Of a DNA stretch of 51,933 bases, positions 13,228 through 44,446 are shown one piece after another; position 1 is the stretch's first letter, and each line of letters begins with the position of its first letter. A program made the position numbers and the translations under genes. Source of the stretch: Ruminococcus sp. (lineage in GTDB: Bacteria > Bacillota > Clostridia > Oscillospirales > Ruminococcaceae); NCBI GenBank assembly GCA_017463375.1, contig JAFTPG010000017.1:1-51933 (forward strand). Reading direction: 5' to 3'. A model generated the notes under the pieces. It did no database searches. It was not told where the DNA came from and was given only the letters and a program-made list of their open reading frames with translations.

Positions 13228-13530
13228 AACAAAAACGTCCCTGACAGAACATATCTATGCTTCTGTCAAGGACGAATAAAACCTTTATCCGCGGTGCCAC
13301 CTTGATTCACAGCCGCTGCAGCTGTGCACTTGACAGGATACCATCATATCCCCGGCAACTGACGTATGCCAACACGTCACAGAATACTCTGTATCCGAAA
13401 ATACATTTGACTGTGCCCTCAGCGGTCCATTTGACAACTTGTTTCTCACCTGATTCTCAGCACCACAGGCTCTCTGTAAAGGCATGATTGCCGTTATCTC
13501 CGCTTCAACGGTTTAACTTATTCATTTATC
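13228..13530 (-). ncRNA. T-box leader (tryptophan-specific) controlling the trp operon
   Basis: The minus strand carries the T-box core TGGCACCGCGG (13289-13299), whose side bulge pairs with the CCA end of uncharged tRNA. Upstream, Stem I contains an AGAGAGCC distal-loop motif and then AAATGGACC, where TGG (13427-13429) is the likely Trp specifier codon. Downstream is a terminator of 13 bp (13237-13249 with 13261-13273, one G-U pair) ending in TTTTT. Uncharged tRNA-Trp should stabilise the antiterminator and allow trp transcription. This fills the 400-base gap upstream of trpE. Confidence 0.93.
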
Positions 13531-39491: not shown

Positions 39492-40514
39492 CTATTCTTC
39501 ATAAATTTCGTCAAACACGCCGCCGTCGGCAAAATGCTTTTCCTGAGCTTCATCCCAGCCGCCGAAATCCTGAATTGTTACAAGATTAAGGTCAAGATCG
39601 AACACATCGGCGTACTCCTGAAGGATAGCTTCATTAGACGGTCTGTAGTAATTATCGCCTGCAATTCTCTGAGCTTCATCAGAGTAGAGGTATTGCAGAT
39701 ATTCTGTTGCAGCGTCTCTGGTTCCCCTCTCGTCAACGACCTCGTCTACAATAGCAACAGAAGGCTGAGCGAGAATACTGATGCTGGGAGTAATGATTTC
39801 ATAATCATCGGGATAGTCCTGAATCGAGAGGAACGCTTCATTCTCCCATGCAAGAAGAACATCTCCCTGACCATTTTCAACGAAGGTCGTTGTAGCGCCT
39901 CTTGCACCGGAATCGAGAACAAGCACATTCTGATAAAGCTTCTGGATGAAGTCCTTTACCTGAGCTTCATCGCCGTTATAGAGCTGCTCGGCATACGCCC
40001 ATGCTGCAAGGTAGTTCCACCTTGCTCCGCCTGAGGTCTTTGGATTAGGTGTGATAACTCCAACGCCCTCCTTGACCAGGTCATCCCAGTCCTGAATATT
40101 CTTAGGATTGCCCTTTCTTACAAGGAAAACAATTGTCGATGTATAGGGAGCGCTGTCGTTTTCAAATTCGCTTACCCAACCGTCCTCGATCAGACCTGCG
40201 TCACGGACTGCGTTTACATCGTACTCAAGAGCGAGGGTAACAACATCTGCCTCAAGTCCGTTTGCAACCTCAAGAGCCTGCTTACCGGAGCCGCCGTGTG
40301 ACTGAGTAATTTCAACGTCCTGACCTGTTTTTTCTTTCCAGTGTTCTGCGAAGATCGCATTGTATGACTCATAAAGCTCTCGTGTGGGGTCGTACGAGAC
40401 ATTTGTAAGTGTAACCTTATCGTCCTTTTCCTCAGAACCGCATCCGGTGAGACCGGTGAGAGTTGTAAGTGCAATTGCCGCTGCCAGTGTAATTTTCAAA
40501 AAATTCGTTTTCAT
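39492..40514 (-). CDS. sbp: Sulfate-binding lipoprotein
   Basis: Binding protein of about 340 aa with signal peptide and lipobox TGLTGC. The mature part starts VTLTNVSYDPTRELYESYNAIFAEHWKEKTGQDVEITQSHGGSGKQALEVANGLEADVVTLAL, which is the sulfate/thiosulfate-binding (Sbp/CysP) signature; NPKTSGGARWNYLAAWAYA is also conserved. The start is set at 40514 with AGAGG 8 nt upstream, instead of the ATG at 40532, which overlaps the leader peptide's stop. First large gene of the operon. Confidence 0.94.
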   Translation of the reverse strand: MKTNFLKITLAAAIALTTLTGLTGCGSEEKDDKVTLTNVSYDPTRELYESYNAIFAEHWKEKTGQDVEITQSHGGSGKQALEVANGLEADVVTLALEYDVNAVRDAGLIEDGWVSEFENDSAPYTSTIVFLVRKGNPKNIQDWDDLVKEGVGVITPNPKTSGGARWNYLAAWAYAEQLYNGDEAQVKDFIQKLYQNVLVLDSGARGATTTFVENGQGDVLLAWENEAFLSIQDYPDDYEIITPSISILAQPSVAIVDEVVDERGTRDAATEYLQYLYSDEAQRIAGDNYYRPSNEAILQEYADVFDLDLNLVTIQDFGGWDEAQEKHFADGGVFDEIYEE

Positions 40515-40528
40515 AGTAATAACCTCTT

Positions 40529-40627
40529 TCATAAATATTGTTTTGTTTTTCTAAAAGCGAAAGCAGTTATTCTACATCGTCCGAATCTGTAGTTTGCTCT
40601 TACGAGCTGTTCAAAGATGTTTTCCAT
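40529..40627 (-). CDS. Conserved leader peptide (32 aa) ahead of the sulfate operon
   Basis: Short frame starting at an ATG with GGAGA 8 nt upstream and ending in TGA 14 nt before the sulfate-binding protein start. Residues 5-17 read FEQLVRANYRFGR, then Cys. A peptide with FEKLVRANYRFGR is encoded at the same place in the other sulfur operon (42102-42179). Over the ten identical residues LVRANYRFGR the two genes differ at four nucleotides, all synonymous, which argues for selection on the protein. No signal peptide or known family. The stop overlaps the start region of the next gene, allowing translational coupling. Role unknown; a cysteine-responsive leader is the simplest hypothesis. Confidence 0.72.
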   Translation of the reverse strand: MENIFEQLVRANYRFGRCRITAFAFRKTKQYL

Positions 40628-40650
40628 CAACATCGTCTCCATTTCCATTT

Positions 40651-40706
40651 ACCTACTTGATAGGTTGGATTTATTATACCAGCTTTTACCTACTCTGTCA
40701 ATAGGT
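40651..40706 (-). promoter_or_regulatory. Promoter of the sulfate operon with two ACCTA/TAGGT operators
   Basis: On the minus strand TTGACA (40696-40701), a 17-nt spacer and TATAAT (40673-40678) form a consensus promoter. One dyad, ACCTA-N9-TAGGT (40688-40706), covers the -35 box. A second, ACCTA-N5-TAGGT (40651-40665), lies just downstream of the -10 box at the start of the transcript. The same layout recurs at 42009-42064. A repressor of the Rrf2/CymR family, encoded at both ends of the region, is the likely binder. Confidence 0.85.
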
Positions 40707-40804
40707 TTTTGAAAATTTTCCCAAAAATGTGAAATTATACAAAAAAATCAAAATACCAACCACAACTATTGTCCGATTTTCAAAAACGCAGCATCATGGG
40801 AATA

Positions 40805-40855
40805 GTATAAAAAAACTCCCATCGTTTACAATTATTGTATAACGATAGGAGTTTT
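40805..40855 (-). terminator. Intrinsic terminator after the chelatase gene
   Basis: AAAACTCCTATCGTT pairs with AACGATGGGAGTTTT (minus strand reading, one G-U pair) around an inner TACAAT/ATTGTA hairpin, followed by TTTTTTTATA. Confidence 0.88.
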
Positions 40856-40861
40856 CGATTA

Positions 40862-41695
40862 TTATCGGTTTAAACGGATGACTGAGTCCCGGGCGTGGGA
40901 AACATAGATATCACGCACGCCTTTCATTTCACCAAGCCCTTTCAGTATGCATTCAACTTCAAAGCCCTCAGCTTCAAGCAGAGATTTCCATGAATCCGCC
41001 TTATCACCAGCCATATCTTTTTCAGCGTGAACACCCGCAGCAGCCATCAGAGGGAGCAGAACTGCCTTCTTATAGCTGCCTGCCTTTAATGAGGCAATTA
41101 CATCATCAAGATCAGGCACAGCATTCATAGTTCCGACAAACCAGTTGGTCCTTCCGGTTCGTGCAAAGACATTCTGAAGCTTGATATAGTGAGCAGCAGT
41201 TCTGTTTTTCATGCCGTGACCCATAAAGACTATTGCAGTTTCTCCGCCGCTGTATTCTGCAACCTCCTCGGCAAGAGCGTTAACAAGCTTTATGTAATCA
41301 TCGTCGGCACTGAGCAGAGGTTCGCCGATAGATACAGCGTCAAATTTATCCTTACAGCTTTCAACAGTCTCAGTGAGCTTATCGTATTCATTGCCGCATA
41401 TAATGTATGTGGGCTGAACAGCGAGTCTCTTCACGCCCTCTCTCACCAGCCTGTCAAGCGCCTGTTCAAAATGATCAATTTCCTCTCCCTCATTTTTCCT
41501 GACAGCGCTTATAACAGCACTGCTTGTAAATGCACGTCTTACTTCATAATCAGTAAATGCGTCAGCAACAGCGTTTTCTATTGCACCGAGAGCATTTGCT
41601 CTGCTTCTCATGCAGCTCGTACCGAAGCTTACCACAAGAATAACGGACTTTTCTTTCATTTCTTCTGAATTGATATTGATTCCTTTTACAGTCAT
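40862..41695 (-). CDS. CbiK-type chelatase, probably sirohydrochlorin ferrochelatase for siroheme
   Basis: Protein of about 277 aa of the anaerobic cobaltochelatase CbiK family. VSFGTSCMRSRANALGAIENAV is the opening; the two metal-binding histidines are in FMGHGMKNRTAAHY and PLMAAAGVHAEKDMAGD. The protein inserts a divalent metal into sirohydrochlorin. No cobalamin genes are in the window, and it sits between two sulfur-assimilation promoters, so iron insertion to make siroheme for the sulfite reductase is more likely than cobalt. Start chosen at 41695 (AAGGA 8 nt upstream); an ATG three codons earlier overlaps that box. Confidence 0.85.
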   Translation of the reverse strand: MTVKGININSEEMKEKSVILVVSFGTSCMRSRANALGAIENAVADAFTDYEVRRAFTSSAVISAVRKNEGEEIDHFEQALDRLVREGVKRLAVQPTYIICGNEYDKLTETVESCKDKFDAVSIGEPLLSADDDYIKLVNALAEEVAEYSGGETAIVFMGHGMKNRTAAHYIKLQNVFARTGRTNWFVGTMNAVPDLDDVIASLKAGSYKKAVLLPLMAAAGVHAEKDMAGDKADSWKSLLEAEGFEVECILKGLGEMKGVRDIYVSHARDSVIRLNR

Positions 41696-41717
41696 TTCAT
41701 TCATCCTTGATTGTTTT

Positions 41718-41880
41718 AGAACCTGTCTTCACAAGAAATATGTATGGATTTTCGAGCATAATTTTGTTGCAGACAAGGCAAAAATTTGCAGAAGGGCTGT
41801 CGCCCTGCAAGGATTTTCAACGCAGTATGCGGCGAAATTTGCCGAAAATACATGCGTGTTTCTTTGTGATGACAGGTTCT
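41718..41880. repeat. Imperfect palindromic element, 163 bp, copy 1 (in the chelatase leader)
   Basis: The ends are inverted repeats, AGAACCTGTCTTCACAAG and the complement of TTGTGATGACAGGTTCT, with two differences in about 21 bp. The interior carries GACAAGGCAAAAAT, a GCAGGGCGACAGCCC-type hairpin and AAAATCCTTG...AACGCAGTATG. The same interior, in opposite orientation, is found at 49615-49779 although the terminal repeats there are different. No coding capacity is evident. It lies between the chelatase promoter and its start codon, so it is transcribed as the leader. Confidence 0.75.
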
Positions 41881-41886
41881 TATATA

Positions 41887-41915
41887 AGTATATCACAAAC
41901 CATTACTCAAATCAA
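41887..41915 (-). promoter_or_regulatory. Promoter of the chelatase gene
   Basis: TTGATT, 17-nt spacer, TATACT on the minus strand. The predicted start of transcription falls at the edge of the palindromic element, about 185 nt before the coding sequence. Confidence 0.75.
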
Positions 41916-42008
41916 CGTTATTGCACATGGCTCGCTTTATTCATGGAGAAGCAGTAAATTCCCGGAAAATTATACTGTCGGAAAAAATTTTTCAAGAAAT
42001 TTCTATTT

Positions 42009-42064
42009 ACCTATTGACAAAGTGGGTAAACTGTGGTATTATAATACCAGCCTACTCGATAGGT
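42009..42064 (+). promoter_or_regulatory. Promoter of the metY/cysK operon with two operators
   Basis: TTGACA (42014-42019), 17-nt spacer, TATTAT (42037-42042). ACCTA-N9-TGGGT (42009-42027) covers the -35 box and GCCTA-N5-TAGGT (42050-42064) follows the -10 box, the same positions as at the sulfate operon promoter. In addition the -10 box is the centre of a perfect 16-bp palindrome, TGGTATTATAATACCA (42034-42049), not present at the other promoter. Confidence 0.85.
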
Positions 42065-42101
42065 GTGTAAGACAAATTCTCAATCGCAGGTGTGATAATA
42101 C

Positions 42102-42179
42102 ATGAAAATTCACTTTGAAAAGCTTGTAAGAGCAAATTACCGCTTCGGACGAATGTGCCTATGCTGCTTTTTTGAATAA
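42102..42179 (+). CDS. Conserved leader peptide (25 aa) ahead of metY/cysK
   Basis: Short frame with AGGTG 9 nt before its ATG and a TAA stop 38 nt before metY. It encodes MKIHFEKLVRANYRFGR followed by MCLCCFFE. The core FE-x-LVRANYRFGR equals that of the leader at 40529-40627, with synonymous codon changes (CTT/CTC, AAT/AAC, CGC/AGA). Three of the last eight residues are Cys, so ribosome movement here would depend on charged tRNA-Cys. I see no terminator between this frame and metY, so classical attenuation is not evident; translational coupling or a peptide function are alternatives. Confidence 0.72.
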   Translation: MKIHFEKLVRANYRFGRMCLCCFFE

Positions 42180-42217
42180 CATCACCTTACATTTAAATAA
42201 GAAAGGAATAAAATATC

Positions 42218-43501
42218 ATGGCTAACTATAAATTTGAAACACTCCAGCTTCATGTCGGACAGGAGACCCCCGACCCTGCAACAGATTCCCGTGCAGTACC
42301 GATCTATCAGACAACATCCTATGTGTTCCGCAACTGCGAGCATGCAGCAGCTCGTTTCGGTCTTGCTGACGCAGGAAATATCTACGGACGTCTCACAAAC
42401 TCCACTCAGGATGTTTTCGAGAAGCGTATAGCTGCTCTTGAGGGCGGCGTGGCAGCACTTGCTCTTGCTTCGGGAGCAGCTGCAATTACCTATACCATTC
42501 AGGCTCTCGCTCAGAACGGAGGACATATCGTTTCACAGAAGTCCATCTACGGCGGAAGCTATAATCTTCTTGCTCATACTCTCCCGAACTTCGGAATTAC
42601 AGCAACCTTCGTTAACATTCATGATTTAGCTGAGGTCGAAGCTGCGATCCAGCCTAATACAAGAGCAATCTACATCGAAACTCTCGGCAACCCCAACAGC
42701 GACATCCCTGATATTGACGCTCTTGCCGAGCTTGCTCACAAGCATGGACTTCCTCTCGTAGTGGATAATACATTTGGTACTCCCTACCTTATCCGTCCTA
42801 TTGAGCACGGTGCAGATATCGTTGTTCACTCTGCAACAAAGTTCATCGGCGGTCACGGAACTACTCTCGGCGGAATCATCGTGGACTCCGGCAAATTCGA
42901 CTGGGCTGCTTCAGGCAATTATCCTGCAATTGCTTCTCCGAATCCGAGCTACCACGGAGTTTCATTCACTCAGGCGGCAGGTCCTGCGGCATTTGTAACC
43001 TACATCAGAGCAATTCTTCTCCGTGACACGGGAGCAACTATTTCACCGTTCAATGCGTTCCTGCTTTTACAGGGTGTAGAGACTCTCTCGCTCCGTCTTG
43101 ACAGACATGCAGAAAATACAAAGAAGGTCGTTGAATTCCTGAGCAAGCATCCTCAGGTAGAGAGTGTAAATCATCCCTCTCTCCCCGACCATCCCGACCA
43201 TGCACTGTATGAGAAGTACTTCCCCAACGGCGGCGGCTCTATCTTCACATTTCAGATCAAGGGCGGCGTTGCTGAGGCTCATAAGTTCATCGACAGCTTA
43301 CAGATCTTCTCGCTTCTTGCCAATGTTGCGGACGCAAAGAGCCTTGTGATCCACCCTGCAACTACAACTCACAGCCAGCTCACAGCAGAAGAGCTTGCCG
43401 AGCAGGACATCAAGCCGAATACGATCCGTCTCTCAATCGGTACAGAGCATATCGACGACATCATTGCTGATTTACAGCAGGGCTTTGACGCCGTTCTTTA
43501 A
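42218..43501 (+). CDS. metY: O-acetylhomoserine sulfhydrylase
   Basis: Canonical MetY of 427 aa, making homocysteine from O-acetylhomoserine and sulfide. YKFETLQLHVGQETPDPATDSRAVPIYQTTSYVF is the family opening; PLP-binding features include ALASGAAAITYT, DNTFGTPYLIRP and the Schiff-base Lys in VVHSATKFIGGHGTTLGG. AAAGGA lies 10 nt before the ATG. The length and motifs match free-sulfide enzymes, in contrast to the shorter paralogue in the sulfate operon. Co-transcribed with cysK. Confidence 0.95.
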   Translation: MANYKFETLQLHVGQETPDPATDSRAVPIYQTTSYVFRNCEHAAARFGLADAGNIYGRLTNSTQDVFEKRIAALEGGVAALALASGAAAITYTIQALAQNGGHIVSQKSIYGGSYNLLAHTLPNFGITATFVNIHDLAEVEAAIQPNTRAIYIETLGNPNSDIPDIDALAELAHKHGLPLVVDNTFGTPYLIRPIEHGADIVVHSATKFIGGHGTTLGGIIVDSGKFDWAASGNYPAIASPNPSYHGVSFTQAAGPAAFVTYIRAILLRDTGATISPFNAFLLLQGVETLSLRLDRHAENTKKVVEFLSKHPQVESVNHPSLPDHPDHALYEKYFPNGGGSIFTFQIKGGVAEAHKFIDSLQIFSLLANVADAKSLVIHPATTTHSQLTAEELAEQDIKPNTIRLSIGTEHIDDIIADLQQGFDAVL

Positions 43502-43513
43502 GGAGGAATTTTT

Positions 43514-44446
43514 ATGTCAAATATTTACACATCAGCCGACCAGCTCATCGGAAAAACTCCGATTCTTGAGCTTACCCGCATTGAAAAAGCTCTCGGACTG
43601 AAAGCAAAGCTTCTTGCGAAGCTGGAATACTTCAACCCGGCAGGTTCCGTCAAGGACAGAATCGCAAAGGCTATGATAGACGACGCAGAAGCAAACGGAA
43701 CTCTCAAGCCTGATTCCGTGATCATTGAGCCTACCTCAGGCAATACAGGAATCGGTCTTGCAGCCGTTGCAGCGGCAAGAGGCTACAGAATTATTATTGT
43801 AATGCCCGAAACTATGTCCATCGAGCGCAGACAGCTCATGAAGGCATACGGCGCAGAGCTTGTTCTCACTGAGGGAGCAAAGGGCATGAAGGGTGCAATC
43901 GCAAAGGCTGAGGAGCTTGCCAAGGAGATCCCCGGAGGCTTTATCCCCTCGCAGTTCACAAATCCCTCCAACCCTAAGGCGCACGTTGATACTACAGGTC
44001 CTGAGATCTGGGAGGATACCGACGGCAAGGCTGATATTTTCGTTGCCGGAGTTGGTACGGGCGGTACTATTACTGGCGTCGGCGAATATCTCAAGTCCAA
44101 AAACCCTAACGTAAAAATCGTAGCAGTAGAACCGGAATCCTCTGCGGTATTGTCCACAGGCGTGGCAGGTCCTCATAAGATCCAGGGCATCGGCGCAGGC
44201 TTCGTTCCCGAGGTTCTGAACACTGAAATTTATGATGAGATCATTCCTGTTTCCAACGAAAACGCTTTTGAAACAGGCAGACTCATCGGCAGAAGCGAGG
44301 GCGTGCTTGTGGGAATCTCCTCAGGCGCAGCAGCATGGGCGGCAATCGAGCTTGCAAAGCGTCCCGAAAATGAGGGAAAGAATATCGTTGTTCTTCTCCC
44401 CGATACAGGCGACAGATATCTTTCTACTCCGCTGTTTGCTGAATGA
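43514..44446 (+). CDS. cysK: Cysteine synthase (O-acetylserine sulfhydrylase)
   Basis: PLP enzyme of 310 aa. [41 protein letters not shown] carries the Schiff-base Lys; [19 protein letters not shown] and [16 protein letters not shown] are the substrate and phosphate loops. AAGGAGG precedes the start, 12 nt after metY. In Firmicutes CysK also acts as sensor partner of the Rrf2 protein CymR, relevant because two Rrf2 regulators lie nearby. Confidence 0.96.

Follow-up and report, generated by a model that had tools for sequence, protein, structure and literature searches.

Several kinds of short leader are known to control the gene that follows them. In the translational attenuators ErmCL and ErmBL, the ribosome halts near the end of a short leader peptide and the Shine-Dalgarno (SD) site of the next gene is freed, the signal being a drug. 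In arrest leaders of the TnaC type, likewise short, conserved residues lie immediately ahead of the point at which the ribosome halts. In Firmicutes, methionine and cysteine genes are controlled in cis by the S-adenosylmethionine (SAM) riboswitch and the T-box. In Actinobacteria, leader peptides with Cys codons have been reported (Canestrari et al. 2020, as cited in PMC9031893) and were predicted in PMC1262725; these are small open reading frames (sORFs) upstream of cys genes whose sulfur amino acid codons lie close to the stop, with attenuation tied to cysteine supply. Here we describe two leader sORFs upstream of sulfur operons in a stretch of 51,933 nucleotides (nt) from Ruminococcus sp. 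(contig JAFTPG010000017.1 of assembly GCA_017463375.1, positions 1 to 51,933; the whole stretch is called the window below). They belong to a Clostridial family whose invariant parts are a CGA codon and the (A)UGY that follows it (Y, pyrimidine), and such a leader probably acts in cis as a translational attenuator that measures sulfur amino acid supply for the next gene.

The Clostridia leaders share with the Actinobacteria ones the position before sulfur genes and the sulfur amino acid codons near the stop. However, the Actinobacteria leaders are described with runs of Cys codons and, in mycobacteria, as leaderless sORFs, whereas the Clostridia leaders have an SD site and, behind CGA, just one Met or Cys codon; they differ further by a conserved peptide core and by methionine genes as the main target. 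In the scheme proposed here they would work like ErmCL and ErmBL, but with amino acid codons instead of a drug as the signal. Unlike in TnaC, the codon element is common to leaders with unrelated peptides. The gene classes are those under SAM riboswitch and T-box control, but Rfam at the gathering threshold gave no match at the window leaders or in the 20 loci scanned of 138, and an upstream riboswitch or T-box at these leaders was rejected on that result.

A leader family upstream of methionine and cysteine genes

The initial annotation had proposed a pair of leader peptides in front of two divergent sulfur operons, and the two frames were borne out: the plus-strand sORF reads MKIHFEKLVRANYRFGRMCLCCFFE and the minus-strand sORF MENIFEQLVRANYRFGRCRITAFAFRKTKQYL (Table 1). 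They are divergent and 1.5 kb apart with a CbiK-like gene in between, both have, as judged from the sequence, a start codon and a ribosome site upstream of the presumed target gene, and promoter-like sequences of the CCTATTGACA type were recognised by eye upstream of both. An alternative start at 40648 would give the minus frame 39 amino acids; the start at 40627 aligns with the start of the family. Within the ten-residue core LVRANYRFGR the two copies differ by three synonymous codon changes only (CTT/CTC, AAT/AAC, CGC/AGA). Of the proposed motif, FE-x-LVRANYRFGR followed by Cys, the shared residues stand, and the directly following Cys does not apply to the plus copy, where Met comes first and then Cys.

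When the minus peptide was used as query, the plus copy was recovered in its own genome (E 0.0013); because of this match and of relatives in many genomes, the likeness of the two leaders is not due to chance. In 396 genomes of the family, a two-row profile yielded some strong matches among many weak ones, and a search for related loci gave 15, titled Clostridia, Clostridiales, Lachnospiraceae, Oscillospiraceae or Ruminococcus. The expected conservation of the motif outside the window was confirmed by a 40-row profile, which matched 53 of the 396 family genomes at E<=0.001. In a sample of the class it matched 26 of 391 genomes at E<=0.01, and in a sample of the phylum 2 of 398, namely the own genome and one weak match judged false; none of the seven other sampled genomes of the same genus matched this profile. 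Scanning the collected loci with 13 columns gave 99 distinct copies. The weak phylum match (L098) was dropped because AGG replaces CGA, His comes next and no sulfur gene is among the listed frames, and all leader counts given here refer to the remaining 98 copies, all from Clostridia. The 13-column scan ignores the residue after the core, but the scanned loci came from profiles that include it. A genome has up to three copies, each at its own locus.

Neither window peptide had an above-cut-off match in Pfam or NCBIfam, in agreement with the earlier remark that no named family was recognised: the leaders form a family without a model in either database. The leader family and the CGA-AUG-Y element were not found in the searched literature, which left subscription papers mostly outside, so that a prior description is possible.

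The first gene after each leader, scored over 1,200 nt, was MetY in 67 cases, MetQ/NlpA in 18, a sulfate-binding protein (Sbp) in 6 and CysK in 2, so that one of these four stands directly downstream of 93 of the 98 leaders. The others precede an SDF symporter gene (one), an Rrf2 gene (one, L137, with a metY remnant seen by eye between leader and gene) or a contig end (three). Leaders in which the core is followed by Met and by Cys are termed M-type and C-type, respectively. All six Sbp leaders are C-type, and Sbp follows none of the 87 classed M-type leaders. Together with a core that is conserved through synonymous changes, these associations uphold the initial view of a short leader under protein-level selection and tied to sulfur genes. 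Some MetQ leaders lie, by eye, 3' of the apparent end of a permease gene, and a leader may therefore act within a transcript. For the gene downstream of leader L120, a cystine carrier was considered and set aside, since the assignment reaches no further than the SDF family.

One leader counted with the MetY cases (L100) is C-type and precedes a chimeric gene that begins like the gene of a sulfate-binding protein. At L100:1625-2062, a start like that of a sulfate-binding lipoprotein is joined to a MetY-like end, by gene fusion, deletion or misassembly.

The CGA-(A)UGY codon element

The core follows the consensus F-E-x-L-[VL]-R-x-N-[FY]-R-F-G-R, and most of it is free at the codon level. Its Asn is present in 97/98 copies (AAT 59, AAC 38), and the two earlier Arg residues, each present in 96/98, use all six codons. 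The final core Arg, by contrast, is CGA in 98/98 copies, whereas the two Arg positions before it have this codon in 3/98 and 10/98 copies. Downstream genes seldom use CGA: it makes up 20 of 888 Arg codons in the MetY, MetQ, CysK and Sbp frames examined, some of them incomplete. The codon after CGA is ATG in 90 copies (M-type) and TGT in 8 (C-type), and thus a codon for an amino acid of the pathway, as an attenuator needs at its control point, stands behind CGA in every copy. In M-type leaders ATG is followed by T in 71 copies and by C in 18, never by a purine (n=89, one copy stopping at a contig end), over 22 different codons, compared with a pyrimidine-initial codon after ATG in 19 of 87 downstream genes. 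With a pyrimidine there, the +1 frame reads UGY, a Cys codon, and this holds for 89/89 M-type leaders. With one copy per 80% cluster, the counts are 67/67 for CGA and 60/60 for the pyrimidine. The invariant parts of the leader are therefore the CGA codon and the following (A)UGY.

A similar preference is seen in the tails behind the core. Where Arg precedes Cys, its codon is CGA in 24 of 28 cases, compared with 5 of 38 for other tail Arg (p 2e-9), and Cys after CGA is TGT in 32/32, compared with 65 TGT and 27 TGC for other tail Cys (p 1e-4). Tails without any Cys number 29/98, of which 22 end directly after Met; seven of the eight C-type tails have a single Cys, and CC or CCC is present in some M-type tails. 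The contiguous Cys codons that mark polycysteine leaders in mycobacteria are thus not a property of the family, and a count of Cys codons as the general signal is ruled out by the tails that have none. The earlier proposal of Cys as the sensed signal was accordingly retained in part: sulfur amino acid codons at the leader end are the likely signal, but Cys is not the invariant one. In two long-tailed leaders (L121 and L122) the element is repeated at the true stop, where they end again in CGA-ATG-TGA. The consensus for RNA polymerase pausing, compared by eye, suits the M-type spacing but neither the C-type copies nor the CGA rule of the tails, and was rejected.

The same codon arrangement was found in leaders outside the core family. 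Independently of the leader profile, metY was located by protein in 196 genomes of the class, and 88 of 90 upstream regions were examined; L142 and L157 were left out (flank cut, gene start misplaced), L142 being the locus of the core leader L050. Within 260 nt upstream of metY, CGAATGY or CGATGY was present in 30 of the 88 regions, compared with 7.2 expected; expectations in the metY, metQ, spacer and hexamer scans come from shuffles that keep base composition. After exclusion of 13 core regions and 2 too short, there remained 73 non-core regions, each 300 nt or longer, with CGAATGY in 16 cases against 1.8 expected and CGAATGR (R, purine) in none against 2.2 expected, and CGA was the most enriched of the 64 triplets before ATGY. 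Among the 22 instances of CGAATGY or CGATGY in this set, 16 lie in the frame of an open reading frame (ORF) with a start and an SD site, and the other frames account for 1 and 3. The peptides of these sORFs have no resemblance to the core. Upstream of 30 metQ genes, CGAATGY occurred 4 times (0.94 expected; two of the four from similar sORFs) and CGAATGR not at all (1.28 expected). From the enrichment in non-core sORFs it follows that the element is a codon arrangement common to otherwise unlike leaders. Two similar non-core sORFs before metQ (L278 and L279) carry CGA-AUG-Y in mid-frame and CGA-UGU directly before the stop.

A probable translational attenuator and its rivals

In the attenuator that we favour, a ribosome would translate the short peptide and arrive at the slow CGA, where the conserved nascent chain may add to the slowing, and would next have to accept Met at AUG or Cys at UGU. 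With Met- or Cys-transfer RNA (tRNA) scarce, it would wait at CGA and hold apart the two arms of a hairpin, a 5' arm around CGA and a 3' arm containing the SD site of the gene, and the gene would be translated. With plentiful aminoacyl-tRNA, it would end at the nearby stop and depart, and the hairpin would shut the SD site. M-type leaders would serve the methionine genes metY and metQ, and C-type leaders sulfate uptake. We infer stalling, tRNA sensing and the direction of control from the arrangement of the sequence. The attenuator fits the gene targets, the link of C-type leaders to sulfate, the use of the slow codons CGA and TGT, and the pairing of the SD region described below. In a Salmonella his-leader assay CGA was slow, and NNU codons are reported as slower than NNC for tRNAs including that for Cys (PMC4046918).

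Pairing was examined at the 82 of 98 loci where the downstream gene and its SD site were located by script, with a median distance of 74.5 nt from CGA to the gene. Predicted SD accessibility was 0.41, compared with 0.55 in shuffles that keep dinucleotides, and masking a ribosome at CGA opened the SD site by 0.15, compared with 0.014 in shuffles (p 7e-5, n=82). The leader end pairs better with its own SD region than with swapped partners, a level reached by 0 of 2000 permutations for segments on both sides of CGA; for the whole leader-end segment, own pairing was stronger in 54 of the 82 loci individually. Two upstream control segments showed no preference for their own SD region (256/2000 and 1682/2000 permutations). 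In addition to the family, its gene association and the invariant element, the sequences thus show a predicted locus-specific pairing with the SD region on average. In-frame translation ends before the SD site in 81/82 loci (the exception is L082), compared with about 17% of shuffled spacers that reach it in frame; in the window's C-type copy the in-frame stop lies right at the SD site. Runs of five or more T are present in 26 of the 82 spacers between leader and gene.

Several results weigh against this attenuator. Predicted SD opening exceeds 0.2 in 26/82 loci only and is absent from the M-type copy of the window itself (0.25 to 0.20). Covariation in the C-type alignment is weak, with 2 of 22 pairs changed on both sides and an unfavourable covariation term (+2.41), and no SD helix emerged when 18 M-type loci were aligned with MAFFT. 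CGATGY, the form without the extra A, was not enriched before metY (6 against 4.85 expected) or metQ (3 against 3.04), and CGATGR was somewhat enriched before metY (13 against 6.5). Two M-type leaders sit upstream of cysK, and the Sbp copies may come from one ancestor, so that the link between C-type leaders and sulfate may reflect few events. Related sequences inflate the p-values. Finally, plain waiting at AUG does not explain the pyrimidine after it.

That pyrimidine makes its simplest sense as a +1-frame Cys codon, and a programmed +1 frameshift is a possible, if rather doubtful, alternative. CGA would sit in the P site through an inosine-A wobble, with the A site offering AUG in frame and UGY one base on; if Met-tRNA were short, Cys-tRNA would be taken in +1 and the ribosome would continue toward the gene start and switch the gene on, and with Met present it would meet the in-frame stop at once. 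Such a device would resemble Ty3-type and CGA +1 frameshifting, in which in-frame and +1 codons compete in the A site next to an I-A wobble in the P site: CGA can substitute for the Ty3 P-site codon (PMC5009743), and yeast mutants are known to shift to +1 with CGA in the P site and competition in the A site (PMC6301793). By sequence, a shift-prone P-site codon and a competing +1 codon are both in place, and the strict avoidance of a purine extends to the non-core metY regions. The base after in-frame CGA-UGU follows no pyrimidine rule (T 25, A 6, C 1), so the rule after AUG is not one of 3' context in general. The +1 frame is also more open than the +2 frame (median 54 against 33 nt, 53 cluster representatives, p 2e-5). 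However, the 16 non-core cases show no significant excess of this kind (p 0.41), the SD site is reached by +1 in only 18 of 50 representatives and by +2 in 11, and C-type leaders require no shift. A conserved +1 peptide was sought among the leaders and none was found, the +1 product having neither conserved length nor conserved sequence, so that the putative frameshifting here would be unlike the Ty3 type in lacking a conserved trans-frame product. Reading of CGA by an inosine tRNA is putative in this genome; among the 30 tRNA loci listed, those for Arg are CCG and CCT. A wider formulation, in which CGA-A-UGY is a decoding gauge that polls Met-tRNA in frame and Cys-tRNA in +1, is triggered by strained CGA wobble in the P site and turns the sulfur gene on by shift or stall, as a class-wide Clostridial principle of many unrelated leader sORFs, is put forward as a tentative suggestion.

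Three further alternatives were considered. An arrest peptide, whose core in the exit tunnel would halt the ribosome upon binding a metabolite such as SAM, homocysteine or cysteine, accounts for the conservation of the core at the amino acid level with free codons and for a variable end located past the core; amino acid conservation ahead of the presumed halt site is indeed found, in the core family only. It is nevertheless unlikely, as unrelated peptides bear CGA-AUG-Y before the same kinds of genes and the element therefore does not need the core. Recognition of CGA(A)UGY as an RNA motif by a protein or another RNA, independently of decoding, would suit nucleotides that are invariant throughout the core family, but the frame preference in unrelated sORFs, the one-base difference in spacing between M-type and C-type leaders and the lack of a clear enrichment of complementary hexamers in the flanks (the largest, GCATTC, 7 against 3.3 expected) make it improbable. 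The least probable by far is a trans-acting product, either a functional small protein or a signalling peptide, which protein-level conservation would favour; the initial suggestion of a free small protein or modified peptide found no support, since copies are repeated per operon, the core closes the ORF apart from an unconstrained tail, the invariants lie at the codon level and unrelated sORFs share the codon element.

Surroundings in the window and significance

Features of the two leaders and their neighbouring genes are collected in Table 1. Past the sulfate-binding protein gene, the minus operon continues with cysT, cysW and cysA, all above NCBIfam cut-offs, and onward to 34623 with a second metY-like gene and a sulfite-reductase-like gene, both below them.

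Table 1. Leader sORFs, codon elements, predicted RNA arms, promoter-like sequences and sulfur genes in the window
Feature	Position	Strand	Remarks
M-type leader sORF, upstream of metY-cysK	42102..42179	+	25 codons
C-type leader sORF, upstream of the sulfate uptake operon	40529..40627	-	32 codons; stop touches the SD site of the next gene
CGA-ATG-T element: final core Arg codon, Met codon, pyrimidine	42150..42156	+	TGT in the +1 frame
CGA-TGT element: final core Arg codon and Cys codon	40574..40579	-	
Predicted hairpin, 5' arm (anti-SD)	40560..40577	-	begins at the last base of CGA; alignment of 6 C-type loci
Predicted hairpin, 3' arm: SD site (40523-40529) and start codon of the sulfate-binding protein gene	40513..40530	-	
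Putative +1-frame continuation starting at TGT	42154..42225	+	stop TAA overlaps metY start; from sequence only
Promoter-like TTGACA (42014-42019) and TATTAT (42037-42042)	42014..42042	+	17 bp spacing; within a CCTATTGACA..GTGGGT repeat; by eye
Promoter-like TTGACA (40696-40701) and TATAAT (40673-40678)	40673..40701	-	17 bp spacing; by eye
metY, O-acetylhomoserine sulfhydrylase	42218..43501	+	TIGR01326 above cut-off; SD site 42202-42206
cysK, cysteine synthase A	43514..44446	+	TIGR01139 above cut-off
Sulfate-binding protein gene	39492..40514	-	TIGR00971 above cut-off

The gene between the leaders (40862-41704, minus strand) encodes a CbiK-like sirohydrochlorin cobaltochelatase, below the NCBIfam cut-off. 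Between this gene and the metY promoter, a palindromic region about 160 nt long, its ends similar and inverted (AACCTGTC..TCACAA; 41719-41881), was seen by eye and is perhaps a small mobile repeat. Elsewhere in the window, a T-box leader at 13265-13517 on the minus strand matches Rfam RF00230 with 94.8 bits, barely over the cut-off of 93. Among the collected loci, a protein of 556 amino acids behind an M-type leader (L036:3160-4827) combines amino-acid-binding and MetQ domains, both below NCBIfam cut-offs. Several MetQ/NlpA lipoproteins have the halves of the profile swapped, with the C-terminal half first (L134:1597-2448, L125:1688-2569, L113:4047-4937 and several further loci); in one example, residues 29-166 of the protein match profile positions 129-268. 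This looks like a circular permutation of the MetQ/NlpA family in Clostridia.

These data point to control of Clostridial methionine and cysteine genes by leaders whose defining feature is a codon and not a peptide, namely a rare CGA directly before a Met or Cys codon. As the element is short and precise, it can be tested by single synonymous changes. If the frameshift reading is true, +1 frameshifting would be used in regulation as a sensor of an amino acid ratio, and the strained CGA wobble described in yeast would gain a physiological role in bacteria.

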